Part shown: positions 19,430 to 20,507 of the stretch, piece after piece
How the letters are laid out: each line of letters begins with the position of its first letter
Numbering within the stretch: the first letter of the stretch is position 1
Source of the DNA: Desulfovibrio mangrovi
Lineage (GTDB): Bacteria; Desulfobacterota; Desulfovibrionia; Desulfovibrionales; Desulfovibrionaceae
Direction: 5' to 3'
NCBI RefSeq assembly: GCF_026230175.1
Contig: NZ_CP104208.1
Span: 2,418,001 to 2,482,000 of the forward strand
DNA length: 64,000 nucleotides
The notes under the pieces: model-generated
The model's database searches: none
Seen by the model: the letters and a program-made list of their open reading frames with translations, nothing else
Told to the model about the DNA's origin: nothing
Made by a program: the position numbers and the translations under genes

Positions 19430-19701
19430 ATTGCCTCCGCAGACGGGGATAATCGTCATAACTTTACACCATCCGCCATACCGTGCCTATTCATTTTCCT
19501 TTCAGAGGCACTATGCGCCTCCCCAAGAACCATCTGGCATATGCCATGGAGCCAGAAAAGAAGGAGAATCTGCCCTGCAACGGTTGGCGGAAGCGGTTTT
19601 TTCCTGTAGTGAGCAGAACTTCGTTCCAGATTCCTCCCGCCACAACAGAACATTTACACACCGTTGAAACAGACGCTGTGCCTGACAGACAAGGTATCCC
19701 C

Positions 19702-20034
19702 ATGACGGAAGCTGAAAGAGACATCATCCGCCAGAAGATTCTCCATGAAATTGAAAGATTGAAGCCAGAGATAGAAAGGCTGAAAGAAATCACCAAGCCC
19801 GTTCCTCCGGACGACGCCATTGGCCGCATTTCGCGCATGGACAACATCGTGAACAACAGCGTGAACAAGGCGGCGCTCAGCAAGGCCGCATCTCGTCTTG
19901 CCGGACTTGAGTATGCACTGGGGCAGACAGGGCATCCCGACTTCGGCACCTGCGTGGAGTGCGGCACGACCATTCCCACAGCACGCCTGCTCGCCATGCC
20001 GGAATCCGCCATGTGCGTAGCCTGCGCGGAGTAG
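19702..20034 (+). CDS. TraR/DksA-type zinc finger protein
   Basis: A 110-residue protein: an N-terminal helical part (residues 1-75, with KILHEIERLKPEIERLKEI suggesting a coiled coil) and a C-terminal four-cysteine zinc finger, CVECG then 17 residues later CVAC. This is the DksA/TraR C4 layout, in which the coiled coil enters the RNA polymerase secondary channel. The two acidic residues at the DksA coiled-coil tip are not clearly present, so a polymerase role is family inference. ATG 19702 is chosen because AAGGT precedes it; the in-frame upstream extension has no similarity to the family. Confidence 0.82.
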   Translation: MTEAERDIIRQKILHEIERLKPEIERLKEITKPVPPDDAIGRISRMDNIVNNSVNKAALSKAASRLAGLEYALGQTGHPDFGTCVECGTTIPTARLLAMPESAMCVACAE

Positions 20035-20099
20035 AACCTGCTTGCCTCTCTTCTGGCCCATAGATAATATCTATGGATACCACCTCGGAGGATAGACAG

Positions 20100-20420
20100 A
20101 TGCAGGTGTTAATCACTATTTCCAGCCCCGATCCGGAAATCAAATGGAACGCTGTTCGCTTCGGCAACTTTCTGCTTGAGCAGGGCGATGACGTCACAAT
20201 TTTTCTAAACGGTCCCGGCGTGGATCTTCTGCAAGGGGATTGCGAGCAGTATCCCATCGCCGAACAAGCCAAGGTCTTTACGCTGAATGAGGGCGTGCTG
20301 CATGGCTGAGGCAAATGCATTACCACCCACGGTGTGGGTGAAAATCCCTTCGTCACTTTCTCCAACATGCCCTTCCTTTACAAGGCCATGGGAGAAGCCG
20401 ACAAGATAATGAACTTCTAG
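20100..20420 (+). CDS. DsrE-family protein with in-frame TGA, probable selenoprotein
   Basis: A small DsrE/DsrF-like protein of 106 residues if the TGA at 20307-20309 is read as selenocysteine (residue 70). The frame is open on both sides: before the TGA it gives MQVLITISSPDPEIKWNAV and FGNFLLEQGDDVTIFL, after it GKCITTHGVG and FSNMPFLYKAMGEADKIMNF, ending at TAG 20418-20420. Family members carry CxxC at this place, so the codon replaces the first Cys to give UGKC. Fourteen bases after the TGA a perfect 7-bp hairpin (20324-20340) with a GGT loop has the form of a bacterial SECIS element. GGAGG lies 8 bases before ATG 20100. Likely role: thiol/selenol sulfur transfer or redox. Ordinary gene callers will stop at 20309. 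A broken gene is the alternative. Confidence 0.85.
20324..20340 (+). promoter_or_regulatory. SECIS-like hairpin
   Basis: Stem CACCCAC (20324-20330) pairs with GTGGGTG (20334-20340), closing a GGT loop. The loop begins 22 bases after the in-frame TGA, matching the spacing and the GU at the loop start of bacterial SECIS elements bound by SelB. The hairpin also encodes T-H-G-V-G in frame, as bacterial SECIS elements must. Confidence 0.8.
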
Positions 20421-20444: not shown

Positions 20445-20507
20445 AGGGGCCGCACCGGTACGTATCCGGTTGCGGCCCCTCCATTGCCTACGGGGATTAG
20501 GCAATGG
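20445..20507. terminator. two consecutive hairpins between convergent genes
   Basis: A long hairpin (20445-20458 with 20466-20480, one bulged base) is followed by a perfect 10-bp hairpin (CCATTGCCTA at 20481-20490 with its complement at 20498-20507). Neither has a clear T-tract, but they separate the selenoprotein gene from the convergent acetate-carrier gene. Confidence 0.5.

Follow-up and report, generated by a model that had tools for sequence, protein, structure and literature searches.

The window, a stretch of 64,000 nucleotides from Desulfovibrio mangrovi, carries a DsrE-family gene of 106 residues on its + strand (20100-20420) in which an in-frame TGA codon (20307-20309) almost certainly encodes selenocysteine (Sec70). 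Reading the frame from the ATG at 20100, we found 69 codons, the TGA, 36 more sense codons and a TAG stop codon at 20418-20420 (+ strand). A GGAGG at 20087-20091 (+), 8 nt before the ATG, was picked out by eye as the likely ribosome-binding site. The read-through product has a UxxC motif, in the form UGKC, whose last residue is Cys73 (TGC, 20316-20318, +). An earlier note on this DNA had claimed that the TGA lies between the coding halves of a DsrE-family protein, and this was confirmed by the reading and by Pfam: the DsrE family (PF02635) matched the read-through product along its whole profile (1-116 of 116) with an E of 3e-8 and 34.3 bits, against a cut-off of 22.7, the scanned product starting at an upstream ATG and so being nine residues longer at its N-terminus. 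Sec was treated as Cys by the programs.

DsrE-like UxxC selenoproteins are an already known family, to which the window gene adds a member. They appear in passages of the Sargasso Sea paper of 2005 (PMC1088965), of a 2006 paper for Desulfovibrio vulgaris (PMC1794560) and of the Global Ocean Sampling paper, as DsrE 1 and DsrE 2 (PMC2398784). The window selenoprotein is therefore less surprising than the earlier note supposed. In the passages seen from reviews of 2022 (PMC9312934) and 2026 (PMC13188914), such selenoproteins are described as mostly bioinformatic predictions of unclear function. The published proteins, as these excerpts portray them, resemble ours in having a DsrE domain, a UxxC motif that begins with Sec, a bacterial SECIS and a sulfate-reducing host. 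The window protein is likely to be the same as the D. vulgaris protein.

Read-through gene and decoding machinery

Under the standard code the open reading frame comprises 78 residues from an ATG at 20073, or 69 from the ATG at 20100, and stops 37 codons short of the read-through product. No NCBIfam family, the TusD model included, matched the read-through protein at E 0.1. Because of this early stop and the missing NCBIfam match, the gene is probably mis-annotated in many sulfate reducers. The Pfam scan found no SirA/TusA domain in the window protein and no signal peptide was seen in it by eye; the protein is probably cytoplasmic. When it was searched against its own genome at E up to 1, the sole match was the gene itself. 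Beyond the gene, 25 nt past the stop codon, a GC-rich inverted repeat (GGGGCCGCACCGG / CCGGTTGCGGCCCC) was noticed by eye at 20446-20479; a scan for intrinsic terminators called none on the + strand.

The genome, a single contig of 3.95 Mb, was searched for selA, selB, selD and tRNA-Sec, as the earlier note had proposed, and all were present above their cut-offs: a tRNA-Sec with anticodon TCA (78.6 bits), SelA (615.9 bits), SelB (364.2 bits) and SelD (343.6 bits). Among 14 control genomes, the same cut-offs were exceeded for tRNA-Sec in 5, for SelA in 1, and for SelB and SelD in 2 each. Within the order, 47 of 199 genomes had a protein match at E 1e-5 and 184 of the 199 had tRNA-Sec. The match held an in-frame TGA in 46 of the 47 (the codon itself was read in 37, the other 9 being taken from the search table), and the remaining genome, G052, had a Cys form. 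Of these 46 genomes, 45 possessed tRNA-Sec; the exception (G038) is an assembly of about 280 contigs, 89% complete and 6% contaminated. Since tRNA-Sec is almost universal in the order, its presence alongside the protein counts for little when taken alone. In the genus of the window, the protein was found in 2 of the 8 genomes drawn.

The hairpin 3' of the TGA

A hairpin begins 14 nt 3' of the TGA with a 7-bp stem and a GGT loop, at the coordinates that had been claimed for it: the 5' arm CACCCAC occupies 20324-20330, the apical loop 20331-20333, 21 nt from the TGA, and the 3' arm GTGGGTG 20334-20340, all on the + strand and with both arms resting on sequence reading, fold and covariation. In 71 of 72 Sec loci the loop begins with GG. 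The bacterial SECIS model quoted in a passage of PMC13188914 has an apical loop of 3-9 nt, an upper stem of 4-16 bp, a distance of 16-37 nt from the UGA and a G within the first two loop positions, and the window hairpin (GGT loop, 7 bp, 21 nt) agrees with the model as quoted there. A search of the window for a SECIS family of Rfam found no match above the gathering score, and the two hits close to the gene at E up to 5 were of chance level.

By itself, the hairpin of the window gene is weak evidence, barely beyond chance at most. The 50-nt fold of the single gene had a z of -0.5, with 48 of 200 shuffles equally good. In synonymous resampling of the gene, with codon usage taken from six window ORFs, 5.1% of draws produced a 7/7 stem at the hairpin site and 35% produced a stem of at least 7 somewhere nearby. 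A lone hairpin that is statistically ordinary, like the meaning of TGA in the standard code, is what would be expected if the codon were a true stop, a pseudogene lesion or a sequencing error. As the fold statistic of the lone hairpin was not significant, the assessment was based instead on covariation and on a null of synonymous codons.

In a gap-free alignment of 63 distinct sequences (A2), 98.2% of the stem cells pair and 36 cells are compensatory, versus 14.0 in shuffles (sd 2.2), none of the 500 shuffles being as high. When the partner was displaced by 1 to 3 columns, pairing fell to at most 54.4% and compensatory cells to at most 4. Further pair types, one of five measures, carried no signal (9 versus 7.9 in shuffles; 105 of 500 as high). 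A2 consists of distinct 45-nt rows and omits L025, L086, L088 and L092 out of 73 loci, L025, L086 and L092 being Sec loci. All 7 pairs are kept in 55 of the 66 distinct genes, whereas 300 redraws of synonymous codons gave 5.4 such genes on average and never more than 13; both this 66-row null and the 63-row covariation count include related sequences, so that the shuffle counts are not probabilities. Over the 72 Sec loci, with L025, L086 and L092 included, the stem has 7 of 7 pairs in 60, 6 pairs in nine, and 5, 4 and 3 pairs in one each.

A comparable element was seen in the selD gene of the same genome (L082, G000:C1:1381215-1382147), which has its own in-frame TGA, a Sec codon recognised by eye within the SelD frame, followed by a SECIS-like hairpin. 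With an 8-bp stem and a GGA loop, 20 nt after the TGA, its geometry is nearly the same as that of the Sec-DsrE element. As judged from these sequence comparisons, the family hairpin is far from chance, and its covariation, together with the similar element in selD, supports the predicted reading as a bacterial SECIS that the earlier note had put forward. With the TGA conserved, the downstream protein conserved and the hairpin changes compensatory, it is scarcely credible that the window gene is no selenoprotein gene. A pseudogene or sequencing error was ruled out by conservation; the recurrence of the TGA in dozens of other genomes makes a sequencing error, in particular, very unlikely.

The stem couples the residues at Sec+6 and Sec+10. 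In the 63 sequences, these are Leu-Glu in 25, Ile-Asp in 21 and Ile-Glu, Val-Asp and Leu-Lys in 4 each, the rarer pairs being Val-Glu (2), Thr-Gly (1), Ile-Asn (1) and Ala-Gly (1). The Thr-Gly pair belongs to the window gene and the Ala-Gly pair to its sister L052, and each of these genes has the full stem. A stem pair is broken in four Ile-Glu cases, two Val-Glu cases and one Leu-Glu case. The SECIS is here a case of RNA pairing that couples amino-acid choices. The 17 Cys genes examined have between 1 and 6 of the 7 stem pairs. One of the Cys forms, L116 (CGKC), is basal to the main Sec clade; where the SECIS would be, it keeps a GGC loop and 6 of 7 pairs, which may be what is left of a SECIS once Sec had changed to Cys.

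Selenocysteine and cysteine forms among the relatives

A search of contigs yielded 34 loci, all 34 with TGA at the aligned codon; its patterns derived from the window protein, so close relatives are favoured. Together with the order-level loci, 73 were read, of which 72 were Sec (TGA) and one was Cys (CGTC), these being loci and not independent genomes, with some genomes present in both collections. The identification of the TGA as a Sec codon, made in the earlier note, is upheld by this recurrence, by the decoding machinery in the genome and by the covariation of the family hairpin. The motif was UGKC in 53 of the 73 loci, UGKL in 11, UGKS, UQKS and UGVC in 2 each, and UGRC, UGKR and CGTC in 1 each. 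The second Cys of UxxC is thereby present in 56 of the 72 Sec loci; the other 16 have Leu, Ser or Arg there, and in two further Sec forms (UKKA) Ala takes its place. Whereas the published descriptions, in the passages seen, list UxxC only, the set read here also holds UGKL, UGKS, UGKR, UQKS and UKKA. Those same passages contained no mention of loss of the second Cys, of an alignment of Sec to the DsrE persulfide Cys or of Sec/Cys tandems.

At the level of the phylum, a search at E 1e-8 gave matches in 86 of 395 genomes. Counted from the search table, an in-frame TGA was present in 69 of 96 places and absent from 27. Eighteen of these 27 were read: Cys occupies the site in 17 of them, and the remaining one (L134) breaks off before reaching it. 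The Cys-form motifs are CGTC, CGKC, CRAC, CKVC, CGLC, CGTA, CGSC and CLTC. In an alignment of 32 Sec and Cys rows (A4), Arg20 and Cys/Sec70 alone are invariant. Aligning homologues at position 70, a check that had been suggested, returned Cys in all 14 Cys rows of A4 and also in L116. Both Cys are kept in 13 of the 14 Cys rows, CGTA being the exception.

The earlier note had Sec replacing the first Cys of a family CxxC. The Cys at the aligned column bears out the first part of that statement; the motif itself is not family-wide, as the 16 Sec loci lacking the second Cys and the DsrE of A. vinosum illustrate. Given these losses, the replaced residue is best described as a single conserved, chalcogen-carrying Cys.

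Three Sec/Cys changes were needed on a careful tree of 56 rows and five on a quick tree of 60 rows. The state has thus switched more than once, on trees that rest on 106 columns and do not separate gain from loss; the careful tree omits L127, L136, L141 and L142 and adds L116. Three loci (L123, L124 and L125) have a DsrE paralogue with Cys (CGTC) near one with Sec (UGVC or UKKA). In L124 the match to the Cys copy is partial only, and the Sec copies of L124 and L125 have, by eye, a hydrophobic, signal-peptide-like N-terminus. With Sec and Cys forms, some of them side by side as in these three loci, and natural variants without the second Cys, the family offers a natural experiment on the reasons for which a bacterium invests selenium in a site that handles sulfur. 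A Cys-form relative (CGTC, 32% identity) was also seen on a viral-labelled contig, IMGVR_UViG_3300004209_000001 (L143); as the sole viral contig match is a Cys form, it gives no evidence of a viral Sec form.

Fold, neighbouring genes and proposed function

An AlphaFold2 model built from alignment A1, with Cys for Sec, had a mean pLDDT of 97.6. Its best Foldseek match was E. coli YchN (PDB 1jx7; TM 0.84 on the query), other DsrE/DsrF-like structures coming next. In the model, residue 70 ends the strand 66-70 and precedes the helix 71-76. By hmmsearch, position 70 was aligned with Cys78 of YchN (profile A4, E 3.1e-17) and, in a weak match (E 0.011), with Cys78 of A. vinosum DsrE (2hy5_A), the residue numbers being counted by hand from the printed alignments. 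YchN has the same fold and matches over the full length, but its identity in the structural alignment is 24% and it has Cys where the window protein has Sec. With DsrE of DsrEFH and TusD of TusBCD, the likeness lies in the alignment of position 70 with the sulfur-binding DsrE Cys78, whereas the NCBIfam TusD model found no match in the window protein at the E of 0.1 used; A. vinosum DsrE has no second Cys, while the window protein has Cys73. According to passages of PMC3397948, DsrE-Cys78 of A. vinosum binds sulfane sulfur and hands it to DsrC, and the authors postulate that the entire superfamily has its active site at position 78.

We lean towards the window protein being a one-selenol carrier of sulfane sulfur (chalcogen), a reading favoured because the residue kept in all Sec and Cys rows sits at the persulfide position and its partner Cys varies. 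SelB and the SECIS hairpin would decode the UGA at 20307-20309 as Sec70 of a small selenoprotein of the DsrE/YchN fold, as comparison strongly supports, and Sec70 stands at a strand end before a helix, where alignment and model place Cys78 of DsrE and YchN. A donor such as a cysteine desulfurase may load the selenol with sulfane sulfur (R-Se-SH), to be handed on to an acceptor thiol, possibly of a DsrC-type protein. Where there is a Cys73, it could bond to the selenium (Se-S) and so resolve or protect the site. Since Cys73 is, by sequence, not essential to the family, the chemistry should need one selenol only. As a whole, a sulfur relay on selenium, in which a selenopersulfide at the DsrE Cys78 position is fed by a desulfurase and delivers to DsrC-type acceptors without need of the second Cys, is put forward tentatively. 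No such reading of a DsrE-like selenoprotein was found in the literature among the matches listed (titles, abstract starts and passages). If it were true, selenium would speed sulfur trafficking in sulfate reducers and would not serve a conventional UxxC redox reaction.

Neighbouring ORFs within 600 nt were chosen with a GC-frame score; 120 were listed and 88 scanned, 32 that were short, near-duplicate or doubtful having been dropped. No shared neighbourhood or gene order was found among these 88 ORFs, no Pfam family occurring more than 4 times among the matches listed (25 of 113 families). In the window, a gene for a DksA/TraR-like zinc-finger protein (19483-20034) lies directly upstream of the Sec gene, and a homologue (64% identity) also precedes the sister Sec gene in L052; an acetate uptake transporter gene follows on the opposite strand. 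These window neighbours say nothing about sulfur.

A few hand-picked neighbourhoods elsewhere agree with the carrier role and are suggestive, carrying little statistical weight as they were picked out of many. In L091, a NifS/IscS-like cysteine desulfurase gene overlaps the start of the Sec gene (UGKL), scoring 467.9 bits, below the NifS cut-off of 530.75, and a thioredoxin reductase gene comes third in the row. DsrC matched 2 of the 88 scanned ORFs: by Pfam, a DsrC-like gene lies 109 nt upstream of the Sec gene in L038 and 62 nt upstream in L040. A regular-expression hunt for DsrC tails among the neighbours returned only ORFs unlike DsrC. A nitrite/sulfite-reductase-like gene is upstream of the Sec gene in L018, and the tandem Cys and Sec forms of L123 adjoin a gene matching the type III sulfide:quinone reductase model far below its cut-off. 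An acetolactate synthase small subunit gene is upstream in L009.

The main rival of the carrier reading is a Sec-UxxC oxidoreductase, in which Sec70 and Cys73 would form a thioredoxin-like selenylsulfide pair reducing disulfides or sulfur species; it holds that place because the window gene and most of its relatives retain Cys73. The UGKC of the window gene, the Cys that 56 of 72 Sec loci have at +3 and the two Cys kept in 13 of 14 Cys rows of A4 all suit it, as do the classification, in the published passages, of the family as homologous to thiol-based oxidoreductases with UxxC and, in L091, a thioredoxin reductase gene (above its cut-off) 153 nt downstream of the Sec gene. However, in 16 of 72 loci Leu, Ser or Arg stands in for the second Cys, as Ala does in the two UKKA forms, while Sec stays, and the fold found by Foldseek is that of DsrE/YchN and not of thioredoxin. 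We regard this alternative as rather unlikely.

Handling of selenium or metalloids is improbable as the function. Here the protein would carry or scavenge selenide-level selenium and be tied to selenoprotein supply. The requirement of Sec for making a selenium-handling protein would be circular, except as feedback; no sel gene occurred among the neighbour families in the matches listed, and the tRNA-Sec of 184 of 199 order genomes contrasts with a protein match in only 47. On the other side stands YedF (SirA-like plus DsrE-like), which passages of PMC5322559 associate with selenium metabolism: it has CGXC in its DsrE-like domain and its gene is linked to selenium genes, although the window protein differs in having no SirA/TusA domain. 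Genes for the selenoprotein TsoY, which would also fit selenium handling, lie close to the Sec gene in L028 (17 nt downstream of it) and in L092 (326 nt upstream). The TsoY ORFs of both loci stop at position 321 of the 366 in the model, which is the effect that an in-frame Sec codon would have.
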